Below are positions 42,715 to 57,882 of a DNA stretch of 64,000 bases, piece after piece. The position numbers and the translations under genes were made by a program. Where the stretch lies: positions 372,001 through 436,000 of the forward strand of contig NZ_JAHXGQ010000002.1 in the NCBI RefSeq assembly GCF_019375475.1. The letters run 5' to 3'. This stretch comes from Saccharothrix obliqua (GTDB lineage Bacteria > Actinomycetota > Actinomycetes > Mycobacteriales > Pseudonocardiaceae). Numbering within the stretch: the first letter of the stretch is position 1; each line of letters starts with the position of its first letter. The notes under the pieces are model-generated. The model did not search any database and was not told the origin of the DNA. It saw only the letters and a list, made by a program, of their open reading frames with translations.

Positions 42715-43353
42715 GTGGACGACGCGCCCATCGGCACGCGCACGAGGATAGTCCTCGCGGAACGCAGGACGCTTTTCCGGATAGGTATGCGGAAATTGCT
42801 CGACGAAGCACCGTGGGCCGAGGTGACGCACCAGGTCGACACGTTCGCCGGCCTCACCCGGCACACCACGCGACCACCCGACGTGGTGGTGCTGGGCTGC
42901 CTCGCCGACGTGCCGCGCCCACCGCTGGCCGCCCGCCGCTTCCTGGCCGGCCGACCGAGTTCCAGCGTCCTGCTGGTGGACGACCACGCGGACCTGCCGG
43001 ACACGCCGCGGGTCGGTGTGCTGCCGCTGTCGTCCGGCCCGGACGAGTTCCTGTGCGCGATCCGGCTGCTGGCCGCGGGTTACGCGTTCTCCGCCGCGCC
43101 CACCCCGCGCGACCGCCCGCCGCCGGAGCGCATCACGCGTCGCGAGACCGACGTGCTGCGCCTGCTGGTGTGCGGGCGGACGAACTCGGAGATGGCTCGG
43201 CAGCTCGCGCTGACCGAGAGCACCGTCAAGTTCCACGTGCAGAACCTGCTGCGCAAGCTGCGCCTGCCCAACCGGGCCAGCGCCGTCGCCTACGCCTACG
43301 AGACGGGCCTGATCAACGTGGGCGAGCTGTCCGACACCGCGCGGAGGCGGTGA
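42715..43353 (+). CDS. LuxR-type regulator with a degenerate receiver domain
   Basis: 212 residues. The C-terminal helix-turn-helix is normal (ERITRRETDVLRLLVCGRTN, SEMARQLALTESTVKFHVQN). The N-terminal part has the length and strand pattern of a receiver (RIVLAERRTLFRIGMRKLL, PPDVVVLGCLAD). The phosphoacceptor Asp is missing (Gly in VVLGC) and the acidic pair is reduced to one Glu. It is therefore probably an atypical, phosphorylation-independent regulator, and no kinase gene is adjacent. The GTG is chosen with GGGGGG about eight bases upstream. Position suggests control of the exporter and of the nearby biosynthetic operons. Confidence 0.85.
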   Translation: MDDAPIGTRTRIVLAERRTLFRIGMRKLLDEAPWAEVTHQVDTFAGLTRHTTRPPDVVVLGCLADVPRPPLAARRFLAGRPSSSVLLVDDHADLPDTPRVGVLPLSSGPDEFLCAIRLLAAGYAFSAAPTPRDRPPPERITRRETDVLRLLVCGRTNSEMARQLALTESTVKFHVQNLLRKLRLPNRASAVAYAYETGLINVGELSDTARRR

Positions 43354-43356: not shown

Positions 43357-44250
43357 TTGGTCACCCTCACCGACGGGCAACGCGGCGCACTGGGCGCGGC
43401 GACCGCCATGTTCTGCGTGGGCACCTTGACCGGCGTGTCGCCCGCACTGCACCACTACCCGGTCTACGGGGGTCAAGCGGTCCGCTACCTGGTGGGCGCG
43501 TTGCTGCTGCTCGTCGTGGCACGGGTGTTCGGCAAGGGGTTCGTCCGGCTCACCCGGCGTGAGGTGTTGTTCCTGGCGGCACTGGCGCTGACCGGGTTGA
43601 CGGCGTTCAACGTGCTGATCGTGGAGAGCACCCGGCACGCCGACCCGGCCGCGGTGGGCACGGTGGTGGCGGCGGTCCCGATCGTGCTGGCCGTCGTGGG
43701 CCCGGCGGTGGAGCGGCGCAGGCCCGCGCCGCGGGTGCTGGTGGCGGCCGTGGTGGTCGTGGCGGGTGTCGTGGTCACCGGCGGGTTCGGCGGCGGTTCG
43801 CCGGTGGGGCTGCTGCTCGCGTTCGGCGCGCTGGCCTGCGAGGCGGGTTTCTCGCTGCTGGCGCTGCCGGTGCTGGGCAGGCTCGGCGCGATCCGGGTGT
43901 CCGCGTACTCGGCGGCGCTGGCCGTGCCGCAGCTCCTGCTGGTGGGTGTCGTGGTGGACGGCGCGGCGGTGCTGCGCGTCCCCACCGCCGCCGAGGCGCT
44001 GGCGCTGGCGCACCTCGCGGTGGTGGTCACGGTGTTCGCCTTCCTGTGCTGGTACGCCGCGCTGCCCCGGCTCGGCGCGGACCGCGCCGGGTTGTTCTCC
44101 GGTTTCCTGCCGGTCGGCGCGGTCGTGTCCGCGGTCGTGCTGGGCACGGGTCAGCCGCGGTTCGCCGACCTGGTCGGCGCGTGCCTGGTGCTGGTGGGGT
44201 TGGCGATCGGCCTGCGGCCGGCGCGGCGGCGGGCGGCGGTGGCCGCATGA
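43357..44250 (+). CDS. EamA (DMT superfamily) transporter
   Basis: 297 residues with ten helices in two EamA halves (ATAMFCVGTLTGVSPALHHY, FVRLTRREVLFLAALALTGLTAF, then LGADRAGLFSGFLPVGAVVSAVVLG in the second half). Members export amino acids and other small metabolites. The TTG start has GGAGG nine bases upstream and follows the LuxR stop by three bases. Its stop overlaps the antiporter start (ATGA). It is a plausible exporter of the product of the adjacent biosynthetic genes; that link is inferred. Confidence 0.85.
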   Translation: MVTLTDGQRGALGAATAMFCVGTLTGVSPALHHYPVYGGQAVRYLVGALLLLVVARVFGKGFVRLTRREVLFLAALALTGLTAFNVLIVESTRHADPAAVGTVVAAVPIVLAVVGPAVERRRPAPRVLVAAVVVVAGVVVTGGFGGGSPVGLLLAFGALACEAGFSLLALPVLGRLGAIRVSAYSAALAVPQLLLVGVVVDGAAVLRVPTAAEALALAHLAVVVTVFAFLCWYAALPRLGADRAGLFSGFLPVGAVVSAVVLGTGQPRFADLVGACLVLVGLAIGLRPARRRAAVAA

Positions 44251-45431
44251 CGTCCCACCAGGTGGTGGCGCTGCTGGTGGCGCTGGCGGCGGTGGTGTTG
44301 CTCGCGCGTGCGTTCGGCTGGCTCGCCACGCGGGTCGCGCAACCCGCTGTGGTGGGCGAGATCGTGGCGGGCGTCCTGGTGGGGCCGACGTTGTTCGGCG
44401 GCGCGTTGTCGGACGCGTTGTTCCCCGTCGACATCCGGCCGATGCTCAGCTCGCTGGCCAACGTCGGCCTGGTGTTCTTCATGTTCCTGGTGGGCCTGGA
44501 GTTCAACCGGGACCTGCTGCGCGACCGGGTCGGCACGATCACCGCGCTGTCGCTGGGTTCCATGCTCACGCCGTTCGTGCTGGGCCTGCTGCTGGCGACG
44601 GCGATCCGCCCGGCGGACGACCGGGTGGCGTTCGTGCTCTACCTGGGCACCGCGATGGCGGTGACCGCGTTCCCGGTGCTGGCGCGGATGATCTCCGACT
44701 GGGGCATGGGCGGCACGCGGGTCGGCGTGCTGGCGCTGGGCGCGGCGGCGCTGGGCGACCTGCTGGCGTGGTCGATGCTGGCGGTGGCGATCGCGGTGCT
44801 CGGCGCGGGCGGCGCGAGCCAGTGGCGGTTGCTGCTGGTGCTGCCGCTGGCGGCGGTGAGCGTGCTGGTGGCGCGCCCGCTGCTGGCGCGGCTCGCCCGC
44901 GCGCGGCGCGACATGTTCGCCGCCGTGCTGATCGGCCTGCTGGCGTGGAGCGCGTTGACCGAGTGGATGGGGCTGCACTTCATCTTCGGCGCGTTCCTGT
45001 TCGGGTTGATCATGCCGCACGGCACGGACCTGCGTGGTCACGTGACGCAGCGCATCGAGCAGGTCGGGAAGGTGTTGCTGCTGCCGGTGTACTTCGTGAT
45101 CGCCGGGCTCCAGGTGGACCTGTCCGGCGCCACGTGGTCGGGGCTCGCGGAGTTCGGCCTCGTCATGCTGGTCGCGGTGGGCGGCAAGTTCGCGGGTGCG
45201 GTCGGCGCGGCCCGGTTGTGCGGCCTGGACTGGCGGCGGTCCGCGACGCTCGGCGCGTTGCTCAACACCCGCGGCCTGACCGAGCTGGTGATCCTCGGCA
45301 TTGGCCTGCAACTGGGCCTGCTGGACCGGCCGCTGTACTCGCAACTGGTGCTGATGGCCGTGCTGACCACGGTGGCGACCGGACCGCTGGTGAAGCTCCT
45401 GCACCGGGAGCGGGAGCCGGTCGCGGTCTGA
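44247..45431 (+). CDS. CPA2-type cation/proton antiporter
   Basis: 394 residues with about twelve helices: QPAVVGEIVAGVLVGPTLFG, LANVGLVFFMFLVGLEFN, the Asp-containing core AAALGDLLAWSMLAVAIAVL, and LGALLNTRGLTELVILGIGLQLGLL are classical CPA2 (KefB/NapA-like) elements. No TrkA-N or universal-stress domain is attached. It exchanges Na+ or K+ for protons. It is cotranscribed with the EamA exporter (four-base overlap) and converges on the YbaK gene. Confidence 0.9.
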   Translation: MTSHQVVALLVALAAVVLLARAFGWLATRVAQPAVVGEIVAGVLVGPTLFGGALSDALFPVDIRPMLSSLANVGLVFFMFLVGLEFNRDLLRDRVGTITALSLGSMLTPFVLGLLLATAIRPADDRVAFVLYLGTAMAVTAFPVLARMISDWGMGGTRVGVLALGAAALGDLLAWSMLAVAIAVLGAGGASQWRLLLVLPLAAVSVLVARPLLARLARARRDMFAAVLIGLLAWSALTEWMGLHFIFGAFLFGLIMPHGTDLRGHVTQRIEQVGKVLLLPVYFVIAGLQVDLSGATWSGLAEFGLVMLVAVGGKFAGAVGAARLCGLDWRRSATLGALLNTRGLTELVILGIGLQLGLLDRPLYSQLVLMAVLTTVATGPLVKLLHREREPVAV

Positions 45432-45437: not shown

Positions 45438-45899
45438 TCAGCCGGCGACGTCGGCGAGCACCGGGTCGACCAGTGCCACCAGGCTCGCCGCCGCCACCTC
45501 GATGGTCTCGTCGGCACGCCCGCTGCCGCAGTACACCGTGCCCATGTCCGGCACGGAGGTGTGGAACACGACGGTGCGGTCGGCGACCTCGGTCAGCGGG
45601 CTGATGCCGCCGGGCGCCATGCCGAGCACCGCCAGGTCCTCCTCGTCCGCGCGACGCAGCCGGGCGCGGGGCACCCCGGCCGCCCTGGCGATCCGGCCGT
45701 AGTTCGCGGGCAGCGCCATCGGCATGGACACCAGCACGAACCGGCCGTCGGCGCGGAACGCCAACGTCTTGAGCAACTGCGCGGTGGGCAGCCCGAGTTC
45801 GCGCTCGACGTCCTGGTGGGTCCGGATCGGGGTGTGCCGGAAGGTCGCGAACGGCACGCCCGCGGCGGACAGGATCTGCGCCGGCGTGGCTCCGCTCAT
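45438..45899 (-). CDS. YbaK/ProX-type aminoacyl-tRNA deacylase
   Basis: 153-residue stand-alone editing domain: TFRHTPIRTHQDVERELGLP, LLKTLAFRADGRFVLVSMP, ALPANYGRIARAAGV and the Gly-rich MAPGGISPL. Such proteins hydrolyse mischarged Cys-, Ala- or other aminoacyl-tRNAs in trans. It is the last gene of the six-gene operon starting with the carrier protein, overlapping the MaoC-fold gene by four bases. As a free editing factor inside a biosynthetic operon it might protect the host from a noncanonical amino acid; this is inference. Confidence 0.85.
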   Translation of the reverse strand: MSGATPAQILSAAGVPFATFRHTPIRTHQDVERELGLPTAQLLKTLAFRADGRFVLVSMPMALPANYGRIARAAGVPRARLRRADEEDLAVLGMAPGGISPLTEVADRTVVFHTSVPDMGTVYCGSGRADETIEVAAASLVALVDPVLADVAG

Positions 45900-46348
45900 C
45901 GGCCGAGCATATCCGGCGCGGCCACCGGGACGCGGCGGCGCATCAGGCCGTCGAACACCAACCGCATGACCGGGCGGCCGGAGTCGTCGGCGAGGTCGCC
46001 GCGCTGCCGCACCACCCCGCGGTCCGGGCGGGCCAGCGCCGGCGCGACGCCGAGCACCGTCACCCGCCCGACCAGGAGGTCACCGGCCCGCACGGGGCGC
46101 AGCCAGCGCAACTGCTCGACACCGGGCGACACCTCGGCGGCGGAGTCCAGCACCACGGTCGCCACGTACAGGCGCATGAAGACAGCGGCCACGTGCCACC
46201 CGCTCGCGACAGGCGGTTCACCCGCACCGCCGACGTGCCGGGGTTGCGGGTCGTACTGGTGGGCGAACGCGTGGATCTCGGCCGCGGAGAACCGGTGGCC
46301 GCCCAGTTCGTGCACGTCGCCGACCCGGAAGTCCTCGAAGTACCGCAC
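45896..46348 (-). CDS. MaoC-like hotdog-fold protein
   Basis: 150 residues: YFEDFRVGDVHELGGHRFS opening, the hydratase-type catalytic motif FAHQYDPQPRH (Asp and His as in D-x-N-P-x-H), PPVASGWHVAAVFMRL, and LRWLRPVRAGDLLVGRV. This suits an enoyl-thioester hydratase or related thioester enzyme. I chose GTG (VRYFEDF) because GAGGGG lies six bases upstream; a TTG two codons earlier overlaps the amidohydrolase stop (TTGA). In this operon it may act on the carrier-bound or released acyl group. Confidence 0.85.
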   Translation of the reverse strand: MRYFEDFRVGDVHELGGHRFSAAEIHAFAHQYDPQPRHVGGAGEPPVASGWHVAAVFMRLYVATVVLDSAAEVSPGVEQLRWLRPVRAGDLLVGRVTVLGVAPALARPDRGVVRQRGDLADDSGRPVMRLVFDGLMRRRVPVAAPDMLGR

Positions 46349-46350
46349 CG

Positions 46351-47289
46351 TCAACCCCTCAGGCGCGGGAACAGCGCCGCGGCGGCGGCGCCGATGCCCG
46401 GCCGGTGCGCCGCCACCTCGCGCCGGGTCCGCTCGACCACGGGCGCGGTCATGAACGGGAAGTCGGTGCCGAACAACACGTGCCCCGGCGCGGCGACGGC
46501 GTCCACGCACGCCAGCGCGCCCGGTGCCGACGACTGGGCGGTCTCGTAGTAGAGCCGGGCGAGGTCGTCGGCGACCGGCGCGTCCCGGTCGGGCAGCACC
46601 CAGGTGCGGGCCAGTTCCAGCCGCCCGGCCAGGAACGGGATGGCGCCGCCGCCGTGGGCGAGCACGAACCGGATGCCGGGGAACCGCCGCAGCGCGCCCC
46701 GGAACAGCAGGTTCGCCACCGCGCGGGTGGTGTCCGCGACGAAGTCGACCAGCGGCGGCGGCACGGCGGTGGCGAAGTCCGGCGCACCCGTGCAGGAGCA
46801 CCGGTAGCCGGGGTCGGGGTGGACGAGCGCGACCGCGCCGCGCCGGTCGAGTTCGGCGAGCAGCGGGTCCAGGCCGGGATCGCCGAGCAGCGCGCCGTCG
46901 GCGAGGCTCGCGGGCAGCACCACGCCGTCCGCGCCGAGCACGTCGAACGCGTGCGCGACCTCGGCCAGCGCGGCGGGCACGTCGGGCAGCGGCAGGGTGG
47001 CGAGCAGGCCGAACCGGTCCGGGTGGGCACGCACCACGTCGGCGGTCCACCCGTTGACGACGCGGACCAGGCGTGCCGCGTCGGGCAGCAGCAGCGCCCG
47101 GTCCGGCAGGAGCACCGACAGCACGGCGGCGGCGATGCCGTGCTCGGCCATGACCCGCAGCGAGTCCTCGGCCGCCCAGCGCGGCACCGGCACGCCGGGT
47201 GCCAGGTGGGTGACGCCGCGCGCGGCCAGCTCGTCGGCCAGCCGCCCGTGGTAGGCGTGGTGGTGCACGTCCACCCAGCCGGCGGGCAA
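46351..47289 (-). CDS. Amidohydrolase-2 family protein (decarboxylase-like)
   Basis: 312 residues of the amidohydrolase_2 family, which includes ACMSD and gamma-resorcylate-type decarboxylases as well as hydrolases. Metal-site motifs are present: WVDVHHHAYHG at the N-terminus, ALVHPDP, FVLAHGGGAIPFLAGRLE and LFGTDFPFMTAP. The reaction cannot be fixed from sequence. A non-oxidative decarboxylase acting on an aromatic acid would fit the neighbouring pyrrole-carboxylate genes. The start is TTG with GGGGG six bases upstream, one base after the TrpB2-like stop. Confidence 0.82.
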   Translation of the reverse strand: MPAGWVDVHHHAYHGRLADELAARGVTHLAPGVPVPRWAAEDSLRVMAEHGIAAAVLSVLLPDRALLLPDAARLVRVVNGWTADVVRAHPDRFGLLATLPLPDVPAALAEVAHAFDVLGADGVVLPASLADGALLGDPGLDPLLAELDRRGAVALVHPDPGYRCSCTGAPDFATAVPPPLVDFVADTTRAVANLLFRGALRRFPGIRFVLAHGGGAIPFLAGRLELARTWVLPDRDAPVADDLARLYYETAQSSAPGALACVDAVAAPGHVLFGTDFPFMTAPVVERTRREVAAHRPGIGAAAAALFPRLRG

Positions 47290-47290
47290 G

Positions 47291-48667
47291 TCAGGCCCCC
47301 GCCGCCGTGACGTCGGGCAGTGCGGACAGGGCCGCCTCGATCTGCTCCGCCGGCAACGCGTAGTCCTCCAACCGCCCGGCCAGGAACTCGTCGAACGCGC
47401 CCATGTCGAAGTGGCCGTGGCCGGAGAGCCCGAACAGGACGGTGCGCGCCTCCCCCGCCTCCCGCGCGGCCAGCGCCTCGGCGACCGCGCCCCGCAACGC
47501 GTGCGCCGACTCCGGCGCCATCACGAAGCCCTCGGCGCGGGCGAACCGCACGGCCTCGGCGAACACCTCGTTCTGGTCGTAGGCGCGGGCCTCCACGTAG
47601 CCCTCGTCGTGCAGCAGGCACAGGGTGGGCGCGTCGCCGTGGAAGCGCAGGCCGCCCGCGTGGATGGGTGGCGGGATGAAGCCGTGGCCCACGGTGCGCA
47701 TGGGCAGCAGCGGGCCGAGACCGGCGGTGTCCGGGTGGTCGTAGGCGAGCCGGCCGCGGGTGAGCGTCGGGCACGCGGCGGGTTCGGCGGCGACGAACCG
47801 GGTGCCGGTGCGCGTGCCGGTCAGGGTGTCGGCGAGGAACGGGAACGCGAGGCCCGAGAAGTTGGAGCCACCGCCGACGCAGCCGACCACGACGTCCGGG
47901 TAGTCGTCCGCGATCTCCAGCTGCCGCTTGGCCTCCAGGCCGATCACGGTCTGGTGCAGCACCACGTGGTTCATCACGGAGCCGAGGGCGAACCTGGTGT
48001 CGTCGTGGGCGAGGGCGTCCTCCACGGCTTCGCTGATGGCGATGCCGAGGCTGCCGGGCGAGTCCGGGTCCCGCGCCAGGACGTCCCGCCCGGCGCGCGT
48101 GCGCGTGCTCGGCGACGGGTGCACCTCGCCGCCCCACGTCGCCATCAGCGTCTTCCGGTGCGGCTTCTGCCGGAACGACGCCCGCACCATGTAGACGGTG
48201 ACCTCGACGCCGAACAGGCTGCCCGCGAACGACAACGCCGAGCCCCACTGGCCCGCGCCGGTCTCCGTGGTCACCCGCCGCACGCCCTGCCGCGCGTTGT
48301 AGAACACCTGCGGCACGGCGGTGTTCGGCTTGTGCGAGCCGGCGGGCGACACCGCCTCGTACTTGAAGTAGATCCTGGCGGGCGTGTCCAGCGCCTTCTC
48401 CAGCCGGTCGGCGCGCACCAGCGGCGAGGGCCGCCAGATCCGGTAGACCTCGCGCACCTCGTCGGGGATGTCGATCCACCGGTGCGGGCTGAACTCCTGC
48501 GCGACGACCTCGTCCGCCAGCAGCGGCGCGAGGTCCTCGGGCCGGACCGGCCGGTGCGTGGCGGGGTGCAGCGGCGGCGGCAGCGGCCGGGGCAGGTCGG
48601 GCAGCACGTTGTACCAGCGGGTGGGCAGGTCGTCCTCGGACAGCAGGTACTTCTTCACGGCCAACAA
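47291..48667 (-). CDS. TrpB2-like PLP-dependent beta-subunit homologue
   Basis: 458 residues, the length and N-terminal extension of the TrpB2 group. The PLP lysine is in [11 protein letters not shown] (Lys113), the catalytic Glu in [13 protein letters not shown] (Glu135), and the phosphate-binding GGGSN at 265-269. These are the catalytic residues for beta-substitution of serine. No trpA or other trp gene is nearby, so a role in tryptophan synthesis is doubtful and use of another nucleophile plausible. Tandem TTG codons and a GTG offer alternative starts; GAGGGG precedes them. It lies seven bases after the halogenase gene. Confidence 0.88.
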
Positions 48668-48674
48668 CGTCCCC

Positions 48675-50018
48675 TCAGAACATCGGCGCCTGGCTGGGCG
48701 CGCGCAGGGTGCCCAGGTGCTTGTGCCACAGGTGGTCCGGGTTGTTCTCCACCTCCCGGGTGATCTCCCGCATCCGGGTCAGGGCCGCCGGCTCGTCGCC
48801 GTCGTAGACGTCGCCCTGGAGCATCCGGAGCACGTCGAGGCGGTAACGCGGGTCGGCGACGAACGCGGTGAACAGGATGTTGAGGCGGTAGTAGATCGAG
48901 ATGAACTCGTACCAGTTGCCGACCGCGCGACGCAGCTTCGACTCGTAGCGCCCGAACGAGGGCTTGCCGAAGTCGCCGGTCTCCGCCGCGTCGAGGATGT
49001 CGTGGGACGCCAGGCGCGCGCTGTTCATGGCGACGCTGACGCCGCTGGAGAAGATCGGGTCCACGAACCGGGCCGCGTCGCCGACCATCAGCCAGCCGTC
49101 GCCGCACACCTGCCGCATGGCGTAGCTGTAGTCGCCCTCGGGTCTGAACGGCCGGACGCGCTCGCTCGCGCGCAGCGCCTCCGCCAGCTCGGGCCGGGTC
49201 CGCACGGCCTGCTCGAAGAACGCGCCCCACTGCCGCCCGGCGGCGGTGAAGTGCTTCTTCTGCGTCACCACGCCCACGCTGGTGACCGTGTCCGTGATGG
49301 GTATCTGCCACACCCATGTGTCGGTTATCGGCAGGAAGTGGATGAAGATGAAGTCCGCCCGCGCGTGGTCCACCGCGAGCGCCGCGCGGTCCAGGCCCTC
49401 GAACCAGGTGTGGATGGCGTACTGGTTGAACACCGGGTCCGGCGCCTTGAGCCTGAGCTGCCTGCCGAGCAGCGTGCCGCGCCCGCTGGCGTCCACCACC
49501 AGGCGCACCCGCAGCCCCACCTCGCGCCGGCCCATGGCGAACACGACCCGCTTGCCGCGCCCGTCCGGTTCGACGCGCCGGACCCGCACGCCCTCGTACA
49601 CCTTCGCGCCCATGGACTCGCTGTGCTGCAACAGGAGCAGGTCGAACCGGCCGCGGTCCACGTGGTAGGTGTAGTCCTGGGAGACGCCCCGCTGGTCCCG
49701 TTCCCGGAACGCCACCTCGGCGGCCCGGAAGCCGTGCGCGAGCCGGAATCCCAGGGTCGGGACGTCACCGCTGGTCGCCGACGTCCACGCCGCGCCGTAC
49801 TTGCGCGGGAAACCCGCCGCGTCCACCTCCGCCAGGGCGCCGATGTCGGCCAGCACGGGCGTGGTGGCGGGTATCAGCGACTCGCCGACGTGCGGTCGCG
49901 GGAACAGCTCCGCCTCCAGCACCACGCAGGACAGCCCGGCGCGGGCGAGGTAGGAGGCGATGGTCGAGCCGGCGGGCCCACCGCCGACGACACCGACGTC
50001 GAAGTCGAACTCCGGCAC
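48675..50018 (-). CDS. FADH2-dependent halogenase, pyrrolyl-carrier-protein type
   Basis: 447 residues. FAD motif [21 protein letters not shown] (GGGPAGST, 12-19), GESLIP (45-50), the lysine of the active site most likely Lys73 in FPRKYGAAW, the halogenase signature WVWQIP (235-240), and [15 protein letters not shown] near the FAD-binding end. The overall form is that of PltA-like enzymes that chlorinate or brominate a pyrrole held on a carrier protein. They need FADH2 from a flavin reductase; none is encoded here. It directly follows a carrier-protein gene by six bases, fitting tethered substrate use. The number and type of halogens cannot be told. Confidence 0.88.
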
Positions 50019-50024
50019 CGCGCC

Positions 50025-50297
50025 TCACCCCCGGATCCCGCGGTGTTCCCCCGCCAGCTCCAGCACGAGCCGGGTGATGCCGTCCAGGTCCCGGAAGTGG
50101 TGGCCCACCATGCGCTCGGCGGGCACGTCGACGCCGAACCGCTCGCCGATGAACACCACCAGCGCCGTCGTGGTCAGGCTGTTCAGGATTCCCCACTCGA
50201 GCAGCGGGGTGCGCGGTCCGATCGTCACGCCGGGCGAGTCCAGCACCCGCTCCCGGATGAACGCCGTCAGCGCGTCGAGCACCTCTGCGTGTTCCAT
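50025..50297 (-). CDS. Free-standing acyl/peptidyl carrier protein
   Basis: 90 residues. Four-helix carrier fold with the phosphopantetheine serine at position 40 in EWGILNSLTTTALVVF; the usual Asp-Ser-Leu is Asn-Ser-Leu. Acidic helix II/III residues follow (VDVPAERMVGHHFRDLDGI). It should carry the prolyl and then pyrrolyl thioester between the adenylation enzyme, the oxidase and the halogenase. ATG start with GGAGA about ten bases upstream. First gene of the minus-strand operon. Confidence 0.87.
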   Translation of the reverse strand: MEHAEVLDALTAFIRERVLDSPGVTIGPRTPLLEWGILNSLTTTALVVFIGERFGVDVPAERMVGHHFRDLDGITRLVLELAGEHRGIRG

Positions 50298-50337
50298 GCG
50301 CGTCGTCTCCGTGTCCGCACCGCCGAATGGGCCTCGG

Positions 50338-50343
50338 ATGCTA
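50338..50343 (-). promoter_or_regulatory. -10 box of the carrier-protein operon (candidate)
   Basis: On the minus strand TAGCAT stands about 40 bases before the ATG in a locally AT-rich patch; no clear -35 box. Confidence 0.35.
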
Positions 50344-50473
50344 TGCAGTGTGGAAAACGGTTGTCTTCCTTCGAAGTGGTGGGCGACGCCGGCCGTTCGG
50401 CGGTGCGGGCACCTGTCCGTGCGGCCGGGTGCGGGCCGTTATTCCAGTGGAGGACAACGCCGACCGCCCCGCC

Positions 50474-50479
50474 TACGCT
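50474..50479 (+). promoter_or_regulatory. -10 box of a probable leaderless promoter
   Basis: TACGCT lies eight bases before the GTG of the acyl-CoA-dehydrogenase-like gene, with no ribosome-binding site. Confidence 0.5.
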
Positions 50480-50487
50480 TCCGTCGC

Positions 50488-51594
50488 GTGGACCTCGGGT
50501 GGCAGGCGGCGACGCAGGCCGAGCACGACCGCATCCGGGCGGAGGTCGCGGCGTGGCCGGACGACCGGTCCCGGTGGCGGCGCGCCGGGCACGCCGGGCT
50601 GCTCGGCTACAGCGTGCCGGTCGCGCACGGCGGGTCCGGGCGCGGTTTCCTCGACACCGCACGCGCGATGGAGGCGTTCGGCGCGGGTTGCGCCGACATG
50701 GGCCTGGTGTTCGCCGCGTTGGCCCATCTGTTCGCGTGTGCCATGCCGATCGCCGAGCACGGCACGCCGGCGGTGCGCGACCGGGTGCTGCCACGCCTGT
50801 CGTCGGGCGAGTGGGTGGGCGCCAACGCGATCACCGAGGCGGACGCGGGATCGGACGTGGGCGCGCTGCGCGCCACCGCGCGGCGCGCCGGCGACCACTA
50901 CGTGCTGGACGGCGTGAAGACGTTCGTCAGCAACGCTCCCCTGGCCGACGTGCTGGTGGTGTACGCGTCGACGGAACCGGCGTTCGGTCACCTGGGTGTG
51001 ACGGCGTTCATCGTGCCGCGGGACGCGCCGGGGCTGTCGGTGGAGCCGTTCGACAAGGCCGTGCTGGCCACGTGCCCGGCGGGCGAGGTGCGGCTGACCG
51101 CGTGCCGGGTGCCCGCGGACCACGTGCTGGGCGCACCGGGGCGGGGCGCGGCGGTCTTCCAGTCGGCCATGCGGTGGGAGCGGACGTGCTTGTTCGCCGC
51201 CTTCCTGGGCCGGGCGGACCGGTTGCTGGCGCGGTGCGCGGCACACGCGCGGGAACACCGCCGGTTCGGCCGGCCGATCGGCGCGAACCAGGCCGTGTCG
51301 CACGGCCTCGCGCGGCTGCGGGTGCGGCTGGAGGCCGCGCGGCTGCTGCTGTGGCGGGCGTGCGCGCGGCTGGACCGGGCCGAGCGGGCGGTGTTCGACG
51401 TGGCGGCGGCGAAGCTCGCGGTGAGCGAGGTGGCGGTGGACGTGGCGGCGTTCGCGCTGCGCCTGCTCGGCGGCGCGGGGGTGCGCGCGGGTTCCGGCGT
51501 GACGCAGGACCTGTTGGACGCCATGGCCGCCACCACGTTCTCCGGCACCACCGAGATGCAGTTGGAGCAGATCGCCGGGGAGACGGCGTGGTGA
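50488..51594 (+). CDS. Acyl-CoA-dehydrogenase-like oxidase (prolyl-carrier oxidase type)
   Basis: 368 residues of the acyl-CoA dehydrogenase fold: NAITEADAGSDVGALRATA and VLDGVKTFVSNAP (FAD/substrate site), FQSAMRWERTCLFAAFLGR, RRFGRPIGANQAV, and FSGTTEMQLEQIAGE with the catalytic-region Glu. Beside a proline-type adenylation enzyme and a free carrier protein it most likely performs the four-electron oxidation of prolyl-S-carrier to pyrrolyl-2-carboxyl-S-carrier, as PltE/RedW-type enzymes do. GTG start, leaderless. It is divergent from the carrier-halogenase operon and its stop overlaps the adenylation gene. Confidence 0.87.
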   Translation: MDLGWQAATQAEHDRIRAEVAAWPDDRSRWRRAGHAGLLGYSVPVAHGGSGRGFLDTARAMEAFGAGCADMGLVFAALAHLFACAMPIAEHGTPAVRDRVLPRLSSGEWVGANAITEADAGSDVGALRATARRAGDHYVLDGVKTFVSNAPLADVLVVYASTEPAFGHLGVTAFIVPRDAPGLSVEPFDKAVLATCPAGEVRLTACRVPADHVLGAPGRGAAVFQSAMRWERTCLFAAFLGRADRLLARCAAHAREHRRFGRPIGANQAVSHGLARLRVRLEAARLLLWRACARLDRAERAVFDVAAAKLAVSEVAVDVAAFALRLLGGAGVRAGSGVTQDLLDAMAATTFSGTTEMQLEQIAGETAW

Positions 51595-53051
51595 CGCTCC
51601 TGCACGACCTCGTCCGAGCGCACGCGGGCAGCACCGCGACCGCCGTGACCGCCGAGGACGGCCGCCTCACCTACGCGGAGCTGGACGCGGCGGCCGACCG
51701 GCTCGGGCACGCGCTGGCCGCCGCGGGCGTCGGTCCGGGTGACCGGGTGGCGTTGTGGCTGCCCAAGTCGCCGGCGGCCGTGGTCGCGACGCAGGCCGTG
51801 CTGCGGCTCGGCGCGGCGTACGTGCCGGTGGACCCGCTCAGCCCGCTCGACCGGGTCACGCGCGTGCTCCGGGACTGCGCGCCCGCGGTGGTGGTCACGA
51901 CACCGGACGGCGCGACCGCGCTGGGCGGCGGGTTCCCGACGCTGTGCCCGGAGCCGGGCGGCGGACCGGTCGACCCGCTCCCGGACGTCCGGTCGTCGCC
52001 CGACGACCTCGCGTACGTGCTCTACACCTCCGGCTCCACGGGCACGCCGAAGGGCGTGCGCATCTCGCACCGCAACGCGTTGGCGTTCGTGGACTGGGCG
52101 GCGGCGGAGCTGGCGGCCGGGCAGGCGGACCGGTTCGCCAACCACGCGCCGCTGCACTTCGACCTGTCCGTGCTCGACCTGTACGCGGCGTTCCGGGTCG
52201 GCGCGTCGGTGCACCTGGTGCCGCCGGAGACCGCCTACGCGCCCCGGCTGCTGGTCGACCTGCTGGCCCGGCGGCGGATCACCGTGTGGTACTCGGTGCC
52301 GTCGGTGCTCGTCCTGATGGCCCGCGCCGGCGGTCTGCTCACCGCCGACCTGCCGCACCTGCGTGCCGTGCTGTTCGCGGGCGAGCCGTACCCCGTCGAC
52401 CACCTGCGCGACCTGCGTGCGCACTTCCCGGCCGTGCGGCTGCTCAACCTGTACGGGCCGACCGAGACGAACGTGTGCACCTACCACGAGGTGGGCGACG
52501 TCCCGGACGGCTGGACGCGCCCGGCGCCCATCGGCCGGGCGTGCTCGGGCGACCGGGTGTGGGCCGTCCGGGACGACGGGTCGCCCGCGGCGGAGGGCGA
52601 GGAGGGCGAGCTGCTGGTGGCCGGGCCGACCGTGATGCTCGGCTACCACGGCGCGCCGCCGCACCGCGGCCCGTACGCGACGGGCGACCGCGTGGTGCTG
52701 CGTGACGGCGTCTACCACTACCTGGGCCGTCGCGACGGCATGGTGAAGGTCCGCGGCAACCGCGTCGAACTCGGCGAGGTGGAGGCGGTGGTGCAGTCCC
52801 ACCCCGACGTGAGCGAGGTGGCCGTGGCCGTCGTCGGCACCGGGGTGGACGCCCTGCTCACGGCGTACGTGGTGCCGGTCGAGGGCCGCGTGTTCGGCCT
52901 GCTGGACGCCAAGCGCCACTGCGCGGCCCGGCTGCCCCGCCACCTGGTCGTGGACCGCGTGCGCGTCGTGCCCGCCCTGCCCCGCACGGCGAACGGCAAG
53001 GTGGACCGCCGCGCGCTGGCGACCGGCGCGAGGTGCGGCGCGCCCCGTTGA
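51591..53051 (+). CDS. Stand-alone amino-acid adenylation enzyme, proline type
   Basis: 486 residues, one adenylation domain without carrier or condensation parts. Core motifs: A3 VLYTSGSTGTPKGVRISHRN, A4 HFDLSVLDLYAAF, A5 LNLYGPTETNVCTYHEV, A7 YATGD, A8 YLGRRDGMVKVRGNRVELGE, A10 PRTANGKVDRR. The size and close fit to PltF/RedM-type enzymes suggest L-proline:carrier ligase; I did not extract a specificity code to prove it. GTG start overlapping the oxidase stop (GTGA); a GTG one codon earlier is possible. It loads the carrier protein encoded divergently. Confidence 0.88.
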   Translation: MTLLHDLVRAHAGSTATAVTAEDGRLTYAELDAAADRLGHALAAAGVGPGDRVALWLPKSPAAVVATQAVLRLGAAYVPVDPLSPLDRVTRVLRDCAPAVVVTTPDGATALGGGFPTLCPEPGGGPVDPLPDVRSSPDDLAYVLYTSGSTGTPKGVRISHRNALAFVDWAAAELAAGQADRFANHAPLHFDLSVLDLYAAFRVGASVHLVPPETAYAPRLLVDLLARRRITVWYSVPSVLVLMARAGGLLTADLPHLRAVLFAGEPYPVDHLRDLRAHFPAVRLLNLYGPTETNVCTYHEVGDVPDGWTRPAPIGRACSGDRVWAVRDDGSPAAEGEEGELLVAGPTVMLGYHGAPPHRGPYATGDRVVLRDGVYHYLGRRDGMVKVRGNRVELGEVEAVVQSHPDVSEVAVAVVGTGVDALLTAYVVPVEGRVFGLLDAKRHCAARLPRHLVVDRVRVVPALPRTANGKVDRRALATGARCGAPR

Positions 53052-53083: not shown

Positions 53084-53821
53084 ATGCGGGTACTGGTCAC
53101 CGGCGGCACCGGTGTGCTCGGTGGGCGGGTCGCGGCCCGGCTGCGTGCCGCCGGGCACGACACGCGGGTGATGAGCAGGCGGCCCGGCACGGAGGCGACC
53201 GCCGACCTGCGCACCGGTGAGGGCGTGCGGCGCGCGGTCGCGGACGTGGACGCCGTGGTGCACTGCGCGACCGGGCTGCGGGGGCGCGTGGAGGTCGAGA
53301 TGGCGCGCAACCTGGTGACCGCCGCGCACGACACCTCGCCGCACCTGGTGTACGTGTCGATCGTGGGCGTCGACCGCGTGCCGCTCGGCTACTACCAGGG
53401 CAAGCTCGCCGCCGAGCAGGTGTTCGAGCGGTCCGGGCTGCCGGTCACGACGCTGCGCGCCACCCAGTTCCACCACCTGCTCAGCCGCCTGTTCGACGGC
53501 ATGTCCCGGCTGCCGCCCGCGGTGCCGCTGCCGCGGCTGCGGGTCCAACCGGTCGACCCGGGCGAGGTGGCGGACCGGCTGGTGGCGCTCGCCGTGGCCG
53601 GGCCGGCGGGTCGCGTCGCGGATTTCGGCGGCCCGGCCGTGCGGGACACCCACGACCTGGTGCGCGCGTTCCTGCACGCCCGCGGGCGGCGGCGGGTCGT
53701 GGTGCCGGTGCCCGCGGTGGGCCGGGTGTTCCAGGCGTTGCGGGCGGGCGGCAACCTGTGCCCGGAGCACACCGACGGCCGGCTCACCTACGAGCAGCAC
53801 CTCACCGGCGCGCAGCCGTAG
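53084..53821 (+). CDS. NmrA-like NAD(P)-binding protein
   Basis: 245 residues: MRVLVTGGTGVLGGRVAARL Rossmann start, DAVVHCATG, HLVYVSIVGVDRVPLGYYQGKLAAEQ (a YxxxK: Tyr-x-Gln-Gly-Lys), and RATQFHHLLSRLFDGM. It is similar to putative NAD-dependent reductases of actinomycetes. A strong GGGAGGAG precedes the ATG. It follows the adenylation gene by 32 bases and may be cotranscribed, but many genomes carry such genes outside clusters, so membership of the pathway is uncertain. Confidence 0.85.
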   Translation: MRVLVTGGTGVLGGRVAARLRAAGHDTRVMSRRPGTEATADLRTGEGVRRAVADVDAVVHCATGLRGRVEVEMARNLVTAAHDTSPHLVYVSIVGVDRVPLGYYQGKLAAEQVFERSGLPVTTLRATQFHHLLSRLFDGMSRLPPAVPLPRLRVQPVDPGEVADRLVALAVAGPAGRVADFGGPAVRDTHDLVRAFLHARGRRRVVVPVPAVGRVFQALRAGGNLCPEHTDGRLTYEQHLTGAQP

Positions 53822-53986: not shown

Positions 53987-54556
53987 ATGCTCGTGCGAAA
54001 GGTCGCGCGCGCGGCCGTGCTGGCACTGGGCGCGATGTTGCCGCTCGTCGCGGTCACCGCGCCCGCCGCGAACGCGGCGGAGCCCCAGGTGTTGGTGCGG
54101 ACCCTGTACTACGACACCAGCCAGGCCCAGGAGTTCGTGGCCGACTGGGACAAGGCCGCGGAGAACTGGAACAACTCGGTCAGCAACGTCAAGCTGGCGA
54201 AGAAGGGCCCCGGCACACCGACCAACATCCGGATCTACGCGGACAACGGCTGGCCGCGGGCGATGCCGACCTCGCTCGGCAACGGGACCGTGTACATGGG
54301 CCGCCAGGCGGTCCAGCAGGGCCACTACCGGCCCCGCATCACGACCCACGAGATCGGCCACATCCTCGGCCTGCCCGACCGGCGGACCGGCCTGTGCACC
54401 GACCTGATGTCGGGTTCGAGCGCTCCGGCGACGTGCAAGAACGACCTGCCCAACAGCGCCGAGCGCGCCGAGGTGGACCGCAAGTTCCGCGGCCAGCTCG
54501 CGACCGCCGACGTCCGGGCGGCCGGCTACGCGAGCACGGAGTGCTTCGTGTACTGA
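53987..54556 (+). CDS. Snapalysin-type secreted metalloprotease 1
   Basis: 189 residues. A signal peptide (LVRKVARAAVLALGAMLPLVAVTAPAANA region) precedes a small M7-family zinc protease with HEIGHILGLPD (His121, Glu122, His125, Asp131: HExxHxxGxxD). Cysteines in GLCTDLMSG, TCKN and ECFVY could form disulfides. Such enzymes digest milk-type and other extracellular proteins. AAGGAG precedes the ATG. The region before it (53870-53940) is AT rich with TACGTACGG and TACGCAT motifs and likely holds the promoter; a strong hairpin follows the gene. Confidence 0.92.
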   Translation: MLVRKVARAAVLALGAMLPLVAVTAPAANAAEPQVLVRTLYYDTSQAQEFVADWDKAAENWNNSVSNVKLAKKGPGTPTNIRIYADNGWPRAMPTSLGNGTVYMGRQAVQQGHYRPRITTHEIGHILGLPDRRTGLCTDLMSGSSAPATCKNDLPNSAERAEVDRKFRGQLATADVRAAGYASTECFVY

Positions 54557-54831: not shown

Positions 54832-55347
54832 TCAGGCGTGCCACGCCTCCCGGCCGTGCCAGGGGGACGCGGCGACGTCCGCACGGGCGCGGCGCAGGGC
54901 CCGGCCGCCCAGGCGTTCCAGGTAGACCTTCCCGTCGAGGTGGTCGACCTCGTGCTGGAAGCACCGCGCTAGGTACCCCTCGGCGGTGATCGACAGCTCC
55001 TCCCCCGCCAGGTCCAGGCCGGTGCACCGGACGTGCATCGCGCGTGGCGTCGGGTAGGCCAGGCCGGGCGCGGACAGGCAGCCCTCCTCGCCGTCCTGGA
55101 GACCGCCGGGCAGCCGTTCCAGCACCGGGTTCACCACGCACCCGCGTGCGCCCGGCCCGCAGTCGTACACGAACACCCGCAGGTCGACACCGACCTGGTT
55201 GGCGGCCAGGCCCGCGCCGGGCGCGGCGTCCATCGTCTCGAACATGGCCTCGACGAGCCGGCGCAACCCGTCGTCCACCCGCTCCACCGGCCGGGTGGGC
55301 GTGTGCAGGACGGGTTGGCCGAACAGGACGATGGGCAGCCGGTTCAC
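54832..55347 (-). CDS. def: Peptide deformylase
   Basis: 171 residues. Removes the N-formyl group from nascent proteins. All three motifs are intact: GAGLAANQ (44-51), EGCLS (88-92, with the metal-ligand Cys) and QHEVDH (131-136, HExxH). The GTG start overlaps the stop of an ArsR-like regulator gene by four bases, an uncommon partner for def. Whether this is the main or an extra deformylase cannot be seen from the window; its location beside accessory genes favours an extra copy. Confidence 0.93.
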   Translation of the reverse strand: MNRLPIVLFGQPVLHTPTRPVERVDDGLRRLVEAMFETMDAAPGAGLAANQVGVDLRVFVYDCGPGARGCVVNPVLERLPGGLQDGEEGCLSAPGLAYPTPRAMHVRCTGLDLAGEELSITAEGYLARCFQHEVDHLDGKVYLERLGGRALRRARADVAASPWHGREAWHA

Positions 55348-55850
55348 CGCGGCAACTCCTCGGGCGTGACGAGCGGGAACAAGCGGGTGACCAGCGCGAC
55401 CGGCACGGCGTCCGGCGGGCGGGACGCGGGGTCGTCGGCGCGGTCGAAGTAGGGCGCGACCAGGTCCAGGATCGACGCGGCCAGGGCGTCCACCTCGTCG
55501 GGCGTGAGGTGCGCGGTGTACGCGGTCGCCGCCTGCCGCCGCCACCGCGCCGGGTAGCGGTCCCGGTCCGCGCGCCACCGCGCGTACCGCCGGTCGTCGC
55601 GGGCGTCCAGGGCGTCGGCCACGTCCGCACCGCCCACGAGCCGCCACGGCTTCTCGCGACCCGCGCCGTCGACCGCCTCCACCAGCCCGAACCGGGCGAG
55701 CCGACGCAGGTGGAACGACGTCGCGCCGCTGTTGGTGCCCAGTTCGGCGGCGGCGCGCGTGGCGGTCAGCGGTCCGCCGGCGAGCAGGTCGAGCAGCGCG
55801 AGCCGCACCGGGTGGCTGTGGGCGCGGGCCAGGTCCTCCTCGGTACCCAT
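55344..55850 (-). CDS. ArsR/HTH_20-like transcriptional regulator
   Basis: 168 residues. N-terminal winged helix-turn-helix (HSHPVRLALLDLLAGGPLTAT, AAELGTNSGATSFHLRRL, FGLVEAVDGAGREKPWRL) then a helical C-terminal part (RRYARWRADRDRYPARWRRQ). No metal-binding cysteine pair, so not an arsenic sensor. The ATG (MGTEEDLARAHSHP) is preferred; upstream in-frame codons lie in the palindromic operator. It is cotranscribed with def and divergent from a sensor kinase, and it probably controls both directions from the palindromes between. Confidence 0.85.
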   Translation of the reverse strand: MGTEEDLARAHSHPVRLALLDLLAGGPLTATRAAAELGTNSGATSFHLRRLARFGLVEAVDGAGREKPWRLVGGADVADALDARDDRRYARWRADRDRYPARWRRQAATAYTAHLTPDEVDALAASILDLVAPYFDRADDPASRPPDAVPVALVTRLFPLVTPEELPR

Positions 55851-55854
55851 GACC

Positions 55855-55888
55855 GCAAAGTACACTTTGCAAAGAAAACTCTGCAAAC
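55855..55888. promoter_or_regulatory. Overlapping palindromes, candidate ArsR-type operator
   Basis: GCAAAGTACACTTTGC (55855-55870) matches its reverse complement at 14 of 16 positions. CTTTGCAAAG (55865-55874) is a perfect 10-base palindrome overlapping it, and a further TGCAAA follows near 55883. This AT-rich island begins five bases before the regulator's ATG and ends about 30 bases before the kinase -10 box. Confidence 0.65.
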
Positions 55889-55930: not shown

Positions 55931-57190
55931 ATGACGCCCAGCCCCGACGTCGACCCCGACTGGAGCCAGTGGCGGCGTCCGGGCCCCACCGCCGCCCAGC
56001 GGCGGCGTGACGGGTGGCTCGCGCTCGCCGTCGTGGCCGGGTCCGCCACGGCCACCGTGCTGGTCAACAGCACGGGTGCGACCGCCGTGCCCGCGCTGCC
56101 CGAGCAGCTGCTGCTCGGCATCGCCGTGGCCGCGCCGCTGGCGGTGCGCCGGCGTTACCCGCTGGTGGTCCCGGTGCTGGTCGGCATCGCGTTCATCGCC
56201 GCGCAGTGGCGGCAGGTCGGCGACAACCTGCTGCCGTCGATCGCGTTGTTCATCGCCATCTACACGGCGGGCGCGTGGGGTGCCGACCGGGTCGCCGCGC
56301 GCCGCGTGCGGATCGCGGTCATCGTGGCGATGTTCGCGTGGCTCGGGTTCGGGCTGGTGCGGTTCCTGGTGCGGCCGTCGCCGTTCGAGGGCGTGGTCGG
56401 ACCGCTCGACCCGGTGCTGGCCTCGGTGCTCTACAGCATCGGGTTCAACATGATGTTCTTCCTGTCCGCGTACTACTTCGGCGGCATGGCGTGGCTGTCC
56501 GCCCGGCGGCAGGCCGAGCTGGCGCACCGCGCCGAGCAGCTGCGGCTGTCCCAGGAGCAGAACACGCGTGGCGCGCTCGTCGCCGAACGCGTCCGCATCG
56601 CCCGCGACCTGCACGACGTGGTCGCGCACCACGTGTCCGTGATGGGCGTGCAGGCGGGTGCGGCCCGGCGGGTGCTGGACCGCGACCCCGAACTCGCCCG
56701 CTCCGCCCTGCACACCGTGGAGGAGACGGCGCGCACCGCGATCGGCGAGCTGCGCGGCCTGCTCGGCGTGCTGCGCGACGAGCCGGACGAGGACCCCGGC
56801 ACCCCCGACGAGTCGCCCGGCCTGGCGCAGCTCCCGGAGTTGGCGGCGCTGGCCCGGTCCACCGGGCTGGAGGTGGCGCACGGCGTGTACGGCGACCCGC
56901 GCCCGGTGCCCGAGGGCGTGGCGTTGTCGGCGTACCGGATCGTGCAGGAGTCGCTGACCAACGTGGTGAAGCACGCGCACGCCCGCAAGGCCGACGTGCG
57001 GGTCCGGTACCTGGAGGAGGCGCTGGAGGTGGAGGTCGCCGACGACGGCCGCGGACCGTCGGGCGCGCCCGGGCGCGCCGGGTTCGGCCTCGTCGGGATG
57101 CGTGAACGGGTCGCCGTGCACGGCGGCAGGCTGGAAGCCGGCCCGCGGCGCGGCGGCGGCTACCGGGTGCGCGCGAGGTTCCCGGCATGA
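55931..57190 (+). CDS. NarL-type sensor histidine kinase
   Basis: 419 residues. About five or six membrane helices in the first 170 residues (DGWLALAVVAGSATATVLV onward), then a HisKA_3 domain with RDLHDVVAHHVSVMGVQAGA (phospho-His in DLHD) and a HATPase domain with YRIVQESLTNVVKHAHA (N-box) and VADDGRG (G-box). It has no large external sensor loop, a form common in kinases that watch membrane stress or an adjacent ABC exporter. It overlaps the response regulator by four bases (ATGA). Leaderless ATG. Confidence 0.92.
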   Translation: MTPSPDVDPDWSQWRRPGPTAAQRRRDGWLALAVVAGSATATVLVNSTGATAVPALPEQLLLGIAVAAPLAVRRRYPLVVPVLVGIAFIAAQWRQVGDNLLPSIALFIAIYTAGAWGADRVAARRVRIAVIVAMFAWLGFGLVRFLVRPSPFEGVVGPLDPVLASVLYSIGFNMMFFLSAYYFGGMAWLSARRQAELAHRAEQLRLSQEQNTRGALVAERVRIARDLHDVVAHHVSVMGVQAGAARRVLDRDPELARSALHTVEETARTAIGELRGLLGVLRDEPDEDPGTPDESPGLAQLPELAALARSTGLEVAHGVYGDPRPVPEGVALSAYRIVQESLTNVVKHAHARKADVRVRYLEEALEVEVADDGRGPSGAPGRAGFGLVGMRERVAVHGGRLEAGPRRGGGYRVRARFPA

Positions 57191-57852
57191 GCGCGTTGCG
57201 GGTGGTGCTCGCCGACGACCAGGAGCTGGTGCGGGCGGGTTTCCGGGTCATCCTCGGCACGGAGGACGACATCGCGGTGGTCGGCGAGGCGCGGGACGGC
57301 CTGGAGGCGGTCGACGTGGTCGACCGGCTGTGCCCCGACGTGGTGTTGATGGACGTGCGGATGCCCGGTGTGGACGGGTTGGAGGCGACCCGCCGCATCC
57401 TCGGCCCGGCGGGCGCGGAGCACCCCGTCAAGGTGGTCATCCTGACCACGTTCGACCGGGAGGACTACCTGTTCGAGGCGTTGCGCGCGGGCGCGAGCGG
57501 TTTCCTGCTGAAGAACTCGTCGCCGGAGGACCTGGTCGAGTCGGTGCGCGTCGTGGCGCGTGGCGACGCCCTGCTCTCCCCCGAGGTGACCCGGCGGGTG
57601 ATCGCGCGGTTCTCCGCGCCCGGCCCGGCGGCGGGGCGGCGGCCCGACGAGCTGACCGACCGCGAGTTCGAGGTGCTGGTGCACCTCGCGCGTGGCGCGA
57701 GCAACGCGGAGATCGCGAGCGCGTTGTTCCTCGGCGAGACGACGGTCAAGACGCACGTGTCGCGCATCCTCGCGAAGCTGCGGCTGCGCGACCGGACGCA
57801 CGCCGTGGTGTTCGCCTACGAGCACGGGATCGTCGCTCCCGGGCAGCGGTGA
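57187..57852 (+). CDS. NarL-family response regulator
   Basis: 221 residues. Complete receiver: LADDQELVR acidic pair, phosphoacceptor Asp in VVLMDVRMPGVDG, Thr in ILTTFDRED, Lys in FLLKNSSPED. LuxR-type helix-turn-helix with ELTDREFEVLVHLARGASNA and FLGETTVKTHVSRIL. It pairs with the kinase just upstream and probably controls the ABC exporter genes that follow, although a terminator lies between. Confidence 0.94.
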   Translation: MSALRVVLADDQELVRAGFRVILGTEDDIAVVGEARDGLEAVDVVDRLCPDVVLMDVRMPGVDGLEATRRILGPAGAEHPVKVVILTTFDREDYLFEALRAGASGFLLKNSSPEDLVESVRVVARGDALLSPEVTRRVIARFSAPGPAAGRRPDELTDREFEVLVHLARGASNAEIASALFLGETTVKTHVSRILAKLRLRDRTHAVVFAYEHGIVAPGQR

Positions 57853-57858
57853 CCGGGC

Positions 57859-57882
57859 GGGGTCCTCCGCGCGGAGGACCCC
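57859..57882 (+). terminator. Terminator hairpin after the two-component system
   Basis: Ten-base perfect stem GGGGTCCTCC / GGAGGACCCC with loop GCGC, seven bases after the response-regulator stop. No T-tract. Confidence 0.6.

Follow-up and report, generated by a model that had tools for sequence, protein, structure and literature searches.

The pathways to pyoluteorin and marinopyrrole share a short cassette in which L-proline is adenylated (PltF), held on a free carrier protein (PltL), oxidized by an acyl-CoA-dehydrogenase-like (ACAD) enzyme (PltE) and dihalogenated in the carrier-bound state (PltA, or Mpy16 for marinopyrrole). The resulting halopyrrolyl thioester feeds a polyketide synthase (PKS). 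Bmp1-4, which act in tetrabromopyrrole and pentabromopseudilin formation, are also a stand-alone proline-to-halopyrrole cassette, and they deliver a decarboxylated free halopyrrole: a thioesterase domain releases the acid and decarboxylation is spontaneous (excerpt of PMC5577590). We analyzed a 64,000-nucleotide stretch of the Saccharothrix obliqua genome (C12:372001-436000, hereafter the window), in which positions 45438-53051 (C12:417438-425051) hold an eight-gene locus of this type. As in the pyoluteorin cassette, proline adenylation, free carrier, ACAD oxidation and carrier-bound dihalogenation are represented, and the adenylation pocket code and the halogenase specificity residues are kept. 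In contrast to that cassette, the locus has no assembly line near it, and a TrpB2-like enzyme, a decarboxylase-like amidohydrolase, a MaoC protein and a YbaK-type protein are encoded in the same operon. The most likely reading is a pathway dedicated to making a halopyrrolyl amino acid, and on balance we think it probable that the locus makes free halogenated pyrrolyl-alanine.

The eight genes form two divergent operons with a 190-base gap between them (Table 1). On the plus strand the ACAD and adenylation genes overlap by 7 bases; on the minus strand the order of transcription is carrier, halogenase, TrpB2, amidohydrolase, MaoC and YbaK, with a spacing of -4 to +7 bases (-7 to +7 for all same-strand neighbors at the locus). 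Every enzyme named in the original prediction, which had been made from this DNA alone, was present at the given coordinates and in this divergent arrangement; its list of seven proteins stood, but it had left the last gene, encoding the YbaK-type editing protein, unnamed. To follow the set into other genomes, GTDB contigs were scanned with an alignment of 24 amidohydrolase sequences, 80 of the 253 relatives were kept, and 14 window proteins were compared by tblastn with these 80 amidohydrolase loci and two host loci. Adenylation enzyme and ACAD, divergent from carrier, halogenase, TrpB2, amidohydrolase and MaoC, were found in one order in 9 of the 80 loci (three from Saccharothrix, two each from Sphaerisporangium and Streptosporangium, one each from Actinoallomurus and Nocardiopsis), and a survey of the order added a tenth (G118). 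Gene order and strand pattern of the seven core genes are hence the same in 11 loci, the window and 10 others, and the full set spans five named genera and several actinomycete families. Because the seven core genes recur in 10 further loci, the arrangement is more than chance, and the conservation in other genomes that the original prediction had considered is real. Among the 80 loci, the set accompanies nine amidohydrolase orthologues of at least 55% identity; in the 70 loci with an amidohydrolase of at most 44% identity, some of them on short contigs, halogenase, carrier, TrpB2 and MaoC were all without a tblastn match.

The best solved relative of the adenylation enzyme was an L-proline--[L-prolyl-carrier protein] ligase (6o6e, 501 bits), which we take to be PltF. 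With the ten pocket positions placed by the GrsA positions, the pocket reads DLLYLALVCK, and all ten residues are identical in the 6o6e alignment. Adenylation of another amino acid was rejected by this match, and the proline-type assignment made earlier was borne out by the extracted residues. The same code was found in 10 of the 11 loci, and the serine S40 of the carrier in all 11. For the ACAD, PigA (380.5 bits) and RedW (370.1 bits) were the top two of 21 NCBIfam models, neither reaching its curated equivalog cut-off (500 and 650, respectively); in the PDB ranking, 6cxt (named butyryl-CoA dehydrogenase) was followed by the prolyl-carrier dehydrogenases 5zw0, 6af6 and 4irn. These matches indicate that the ACAD belongs to the prolyl-S-carrier oxidase group.

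The halogenase, in which WVWQIP occupies residues 235-240, scored 668, 653 and 617 bits against ChlB4, Mpy16 and PltA in the PDB, and 157 bits against the next solved halogenase. ChlB4 acts on a carrier-bound substrate. RadH, the tetracycline 7-halogenase, PltM and PrnA, which act on free substrates, scored 108, 62, 54 and 22 bits. A free-substrate-type halogenase was rejected by this difference (617-668 versus at most 108 bits), and the carrier-dependent type put forward in the original prediction was upheld. Bmp2 brominates pyrrole four times, and its exchange to the Mpy16 residues (Y302S/F306V/A345W) gives mono-halogenation (excerpt of PMC5577590); the structure 5BUL is described as the Bmp2 triple mutant, which stops at dibromination (excerpt of PMC8407142). 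Unlike Bmp2, which has Y/F/A, the locus halogenase has S325, V329 and W369, the same letters as in the Mpy16 and PltA rows (equivalence assigned from spacing in the alignment), and these residues and WVWQIP are kept in all 11 loci. Because the S/V/W residues are as in Mpy16, dihalogenation of the carrier-bound pyrrole is expected, and two chlorines at C4 and C5 are the halogen and number predicted by analogy. Judged by its sequence, the enzyme falls into the carrier-dependent group with a dihalogenase pocket. In a phylum-wide sample of 396 genomes, five had PltA-like halogenases (E 1e-100), among them the host with three copies. The two further host loci, L122 (C23:838500-858400) and L123 (C48:219000-238900), encode halogenases 69% and 61% identical to that of the locus and carry their own proline-type adenylation enzymes (48-49%; codes DLFYAAFVCK and DLFYLALVCK) and ACADs (44-45%). 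The L123 halogenase has T/I/W instead of S/V/W.

The original prediction had described a locus without a PKS or nonribosomal peptide synthetase (NRPS), and large assembly-line genes beside the cluster were therefore looked for. Domain searches of the host assembly (49 contigs, 96.8% complete) gave 44 condensation and 59 ketosynthase-family matches. On contig C12, the nearest condensation domain ends at 196644, approximately 220 kb away, and the nearest ketosynthase starts at 667166, approximately 242 kb away, so that an assembly line near the locus was rejected. Neither were PKS or NRPS families found in thirty flanking open reading frames of the related loci other than G118 (ten of these taken from the longer ones, some from the Actinomadura rayongensis locus L011); the flanks encode, among others, regulators, transporters, a DNA polymerase, UvrB, RecA, RNase Y and tetratricopeptide repeat proteins. 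The downstream PKS, NRPS or coupling enzyme of PltF/PltL/PltE/PltA-type cassettes is thus missing from the vicinity of the locus. Because no assembly line is nearby, we claim likeness to the cassette only up to the thioester and not for the whole pyoluteorin-type pathway.

The TrpB2-like enzyme matched PRK12391 (697 bits) and TIGR01415 (630 bits, cut-off 519) over its full length and above both curated cut-offs. It shares the catalytic residues of this group: K113 and E135, by homology presumably the lysine that binds pyridoxal 5'-phosphate (PLP) and the catalytic glutamate, are kept in 11/11 loci, and the ETGAGQWG motif is retained. In a maximum-likelihood tree of the 11 locus TrpB2s, 28 ordinary TrpB2s and the other TrpB of the host, the locus enzymes differed from the ordinary ones by forming a single clade (support 99/100). 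Its stem measures 0.76 changes per site; with the outgroup split set aside, no inner branch is longer. The two groups are separated at 37 positions, defined as positions with no common residue or with a locus-fixed residue found in at most one ordinary TrpB2. Among the differences are F342 (Y in ordinary TrpB2s), D345 (M), F381 (I), M232 (L), W178 (F or Y) and M383 (I in two locus members, P in ordinary TrpB2s). F342 aligns with the Y of GLDYPGVGP in the solved TrpB 5ey5, which we take to be the position of F306 in Salmonella TrpB that touches indole. This pattern looks like that of an enzyme retaining the serine half-reaction with a changed nucleophile; formation of C-C bonds is the chemistry of the TrpB family. 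TrpB2-like proteins (E 1e-80) occur in 55 of 298 sampled genomes of the order, and the locus type occurs among these only in the host and G118, whose copy is 83% identical (43-63% for the rest). All 11 locus-type TrpB2s that were found sit in a halopyrrole operon, and G118 and G682 hold the locus type together with an ordinary TrpB2. A 33-38% identical TrpB-like protein, taken from its sequence as canonical TrpB, is encoded elsewhere in the host and in 10/10 genomes checked (nine with the set and that of L011), so that the locus TrpB2 appears to be an extra copy. To our knowledge, no agreed function has been assigned to TrpB2 where TrpA/TrpB are also present in the cell. Another TrpB2-like group, 43-49% identical, was seen in G687 (C95), G168, G215, G224 and G252.

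The structures of the amidohydrolase and the MaoC protein were modeled. The amidohydrolase model (mean predicted local distance difference test score, pLDDT, 93.3) had 2f6k, a protein of unknown function, as its top PDB neighbor, and then matched the decarboxylases of gamma-resorcylate, isoorotate, 2-amino-3-carboxymuconate 6-semialdehyde (ACMS), 2,3-dihydroxybenzoate and 5-carboxyvanillate. The best 50 of 127 neighbors (E 0.001) are all titled decarboxylases except 2f6k, 3s4t and 6jqx. H9, H11, H157, H212 and D276, by homology presumably the HxH, H and D metal ligands and the catalytic H, are kept in 11/11 loci. The enzyme thus resembles aromatic-acid decarboxylases of the ACMS decarboxylase type in fold and metal-ligand set, and this is its predicted activity; it differs from them in its 17-25% identity to these best 50 of the 127 solved chains and in its proposed substrate, a halopyrrole carboxylate. 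The MaoC protein scored below its Pfam family cut-off (20.4 versus 27 bits), and its predicted structure (mean pLDDT 94.4) matched MaoC dehydratases, with 3exz as the best PDB match. D35 and H40, which we take to be the D-x4-H dyad of MaoC hydratases, do not vary across an alignment of 39 sequences, which takes in distant members whose genomic context is unexamined.

We propose that the adenylation enzyme would load L-proline onto the free carrier, that the ACAD would oxidize prolyl-S-carrier to pyrrolyl-2-carboxyl-S-carrier, and that the halogenase would then halogenate the pyrrole, by analogy through chlorination at both C4 and C5. The acid would be released from the carrier, perhaps by the MaoC hot-dog protein, and the metal-dependent amidohydrolase-2 would decarboxylate 4,5-dihalopyrrole-2-carboxylate to 2,3-dihalopyrrole. 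This compound can be regarded as an indole isostere, since its halogens would sit at the place of the fused benzo ring of indole and its free carbons would include C4, the counterpart of indole C3. TrpB2 would add it to the aminoacrylate formed from L-serine to give dihalopyrrolyl-alanine, with attachment at C4 if indole is mimicked and at C5 if intrinsic reactivity decides. EamA (or LysE) would export the amino acid, and YbaK would clear it from mischarged tRNA. The steps up to the halopyrrolyl thioester have good support from sequence and residue-level similarity to characterized enzymes; release, decarboxylation, coupling, export and immunity we infer from fold, co-conservation and chemical logic. 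Because dihalopyrrole would be an indole isostere, both the recruitment of a TrpB and the neighboring decarboxylase would be explained. The original prediction had expected TrpB2, amidohydrolase and MaoC to lead to a different product class, and their co-conservation in 11 loci strengthens this expectation, the product itself being predicted. Unlike the free halopyrrole of the Bmp pathway, the pyrrole of this locus would enter an amino acid. In cells, tryptophan synthase converts thienopyrrole to thienopyrrolyl-alanine, and tryptophanyl-tRNA synthetase (TrpRS) accepts the product (excerpt of PMC12123629). Among the matches listed for the open-access literature, outside of which lie most subscription papers and bioRxiv, we found no earlier case of pyrrolyl-alanine biosynthesis, no halopyrrole pathway that uses a TrpB2 and nothing useful on self-resistance by editing; the adenylation code string was not found in that literature either. 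If the proposal is true, amino acid synthesis can take the place of assembly lines as the outlet of a proline-to-halopyrrole cassette, a TrpB2 lineage has a natural function, a biosynthetic operon is linked to tRNA editing as immunity, and a candidate biocatalyst for chlorinated aromatic amino acids is at hand.

By analogy, a halopyrrolyl-alanine-type product could be charged on tRNA, and the YbaK-type protein bears on this point. It scored 48 bits against the YbaK equivalog model (cut-off 153), so that it is not YbaK itself, and K44, which we take to be the catalytic lysine, is kept in 7/7 copies. In the window its gene overlaps maoC by 4 bases, which ties it to the operon there. At E 1e-20 the host was the one genome with the locus type in a phylum-wide sample of 396, so this subtype is rare; other YbaK-like proteins of related genomes are 26-34% identical, and Streptomyces strains carry relatives of approximately 50-54% identity in an unexamined genomic context. 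The canavanyl-tRNA deacylase is a B3/4-type protein, whereas the locus protein belongs to the YbaK/INS fold group and sits in a presumed biosynthetic operon. Both are free-standing editing proteins, and the former guards against a toxic amino acid, canavanine (excerpt of PMC10018355). Tentatively, and with a little less than even confidence, we suggest that 2,3-dichloropyrrole serves as a substitute indole from which TrpB2 and serine make dichloropyrrolyl-alanine, a tryptophan antimetabolite, and that the deacylase of the operon protects the producer; this would mean a new class of natural amino acid and an amino-acid antibiotic whose producer resists it in a new way. A second, resistant TrpRS as the immunity gene was rejected: a family search of 12 genomes found two TrpRS in 10 of them, including G678, which is without the set, and a single one in G680 and G683, so that its presence does not discriminate carriers of the set.

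Transporter and regulator genes accompany the set. The EamA exporter, whose TIGR00950 match is a model for carboxylate/amino acid/amine transporters, is present in 10/11 loci; the Nocardiopsis locus L010 has LysE-type and major facilitator superfamily transporters in its place, the LysE-type protein scoring 97 bits, under the cut-off, against a homoserine/threonine efflux model. All 10 other loci gave a match to the LuxR-type regulator (33-80% identity, the best match in L007 being a fragment), and the low-identity matches may reflect the shared helix-turn-helix only. In 5/5 loci scanned (L006, L007, L008, L009 and L012), a gene for a MocR-like (GntR-aminotransferase) regulator lies after the operon and convergent with it, behind maoC or, in L009, behind ybaK. 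The protein is YczR-like, under the curated NCBIfam cut-off in four loci and by Pfam only in L009, and suggests sensing of an amino acid or a PLP-linked signal.

Several points weigh against a halopyrrolyl-alanine pathway. The steps after halogenation have no characterized homologue acting on the proposed substrates, and the assignment of the release step is weak, with no convincing enzyme: Pfam/NCBIfam-type domain scans found no thioesterase family in the locus set, and because the hydratase dyad D35/H40 is kept, thioesterase action of the MaoC protein is a guess. The amidohydrolase family also includes hydrolases such as PtmU3, which is among the sequence matches (41.5 bits). Since the Bmp acid decarboxylates spontaneously, a decarboxylase may be unnecessary. 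The mapping of the TrpB2 substitutions to the active site, based on alignment, is provisional, and the adenylation code of L010 is DLFYAAFVCK. In L011, where the amidohydrolase is 53% identical, a proline-code adenylation enzyme lies beside it in divergent orientation (L011:8310-10915) and the rest of the set is missing; neither a PltA-like halogenase (E 1e-60) nor a TrpB2 turned up in this genome, where TrpB2 was matched only by a TrpB-like protein of 35% identity, and L011 may be a relic or a different, halogen-free pathway. Lastly, YbaK is present in 7/11 loci and missing from the four Sphaerisporangium and Streptosporangium loci, whose genomes hold only distant relatives elsewhere (29-33% identity).

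Other products and other roles for these genes were also weighed. The product could be a free halopyrrole or halopyrrole-2-carboxylic acid, a small antibiotic or signal like tetrabromopyrrole, with TrpB2 catalyzing another beta-replacement such as N-alkylation at the pyrrole nitrogen or seryl ester formation. The nucleophile specificity of TrpB2 is unreadable from sequence, and the tetrabromopyrrole pathway is an example of a stand-alone prolyl/pyrrolyl cassette from which free halopyrrole is released (excerpt of PMC5577590). However, TrpB2 is present in 11/11 loci with group-specific changes, so that it likely acts on a pathway intermediate. The C-C bond chemistry of the family also argues against such a product, which we consider unlikely. 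It is improbable, too, that the cassette supplies dihalopyrrolyl-S-carrier in trans to a distant PKS or NRPS while TrpB2, amidohydrolase and MaoC make another building block: the host is rich in condensation and ketosynthase-family domains (44 and 59 matches) and has two further PltA-like halogenase loci, but no assembly-line gene lies within approximately 220 kb on the contig, and none travels with the set in the scanned flanks of related loci. Alternatively, tryptophan or an indole-derived partner could be the product of TrpB2 and be joined to the halopyrrolyl acid, with the amidohydrolase or MaoC taking part in joining or release. This would fit the tested TrpB catalytic residues and ETGAGQWG of TrpB2, yet the set lacks a conserved enzyme for amide formation or ligation, the position equated with the indole contact is altered relative to 28 ordinary TrpB2s, and the hosts already own a canonical-type TrpB; we hold this to be very unlikely. 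A last alternative concerns the side genes only and is compatible with any pathway, namely that YbaK is a generic editing protein that joined by chance and that EamA and the antiporter are incidental. Its absence from 4/11 loci and its Streptomyces relatives of approximately 50-54% identity fit an incidental YbaK, whereas the rarity of the subtype, the four-base overlap with maoC and the 26-34% identity of other YbaK-like proteins speak for a dedicated one, leaving chance association with an appreciable but clearly minor probability.

Table 1. Genes of the halopyrrole locus and its companions (positions in the window).
Feature	Position	Strand	Evidence
LuxR-type regulator, possible companion	42787..43353	+	GerE 60 bits
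EamA-family exporter, conserved companion	43357..44250	+	PF00892 76.5 bits; TIGR00950 47.9 bits (cut-off 230)
Na+/H+ (CPA2-type) antiporter, frequent companion	44247..45431	+	PF00999 165.6 bits; 8/11 loci
YbaK/ProX-type aminoacyl-tRNA deacylase, proposed self-protection by trans-editing	45438..45899	-	PF04073 68.2 bits
MaoC hot-dog protein, proposed acid release from carrier (weakest assignment)	45896..46354	-	Predicted structure; best PDB match 3exz
Amidohydrolase-2, proposed halopyrrole-2-carboxylate decarboxylase	46351..47289	-	PF04909 71 bits; model neighbors
TrpB2-like PLP enzyme, proposed halopyrrole + L-serine coupling	47291..48667	-	PRK12391 697 bits
Flavin-dependent halogenase (PltA/Mpy16-type), carrier-bound pyrrole as predicted substrate	48675..50018	-	PDB matches ChlB4, Mpy16, PltA; WVWQIP
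Free-standing carrier protein (PltL-like)	50025..50297	-	PF00550 26.1 bits; phosphopantetheine serine S40 in GILNSL
ACAD-like prolyl-S-carrier oxidase (PltE/RedW/PigA-like)	50488..51594	+	NCBIfam PigA 380.5, RedW 370.1 bits
Stand-alone L-proline adenylation enzyme (PltF-like)	51588..53051	+	PDB 6o6e 501 bits; code DLLYLALVCK

The window as a whole is of high G+C content (69-77% in 2-kb steps), and Saccharothrix and Actinosynnema supply the closest relatives of its proteins. A simple purpose-written caller based on codon usage called 67 genes, the longest of at most 612 codons, and no tRNA genes were found within the 64 kb. The short-chain dehydrogenase/reductase gene at 53084-53821 was rejected as an operon member; among related loci it was matched only in L005, in another position. 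Adjoining the locus, a peptide deformylase gene overlaps an ArsR-type regulator gene (54832-55865), and this deformylase could be a resistance-type second copy. Two genes for snapalysin-type M7 metallopeptidases (53987-54556 and 59973-60497) flank a segment made up of the deformylase pair and of genes for a histidine kinase, a response regulator and a DrrA-type ABC exporter (55931-59918).

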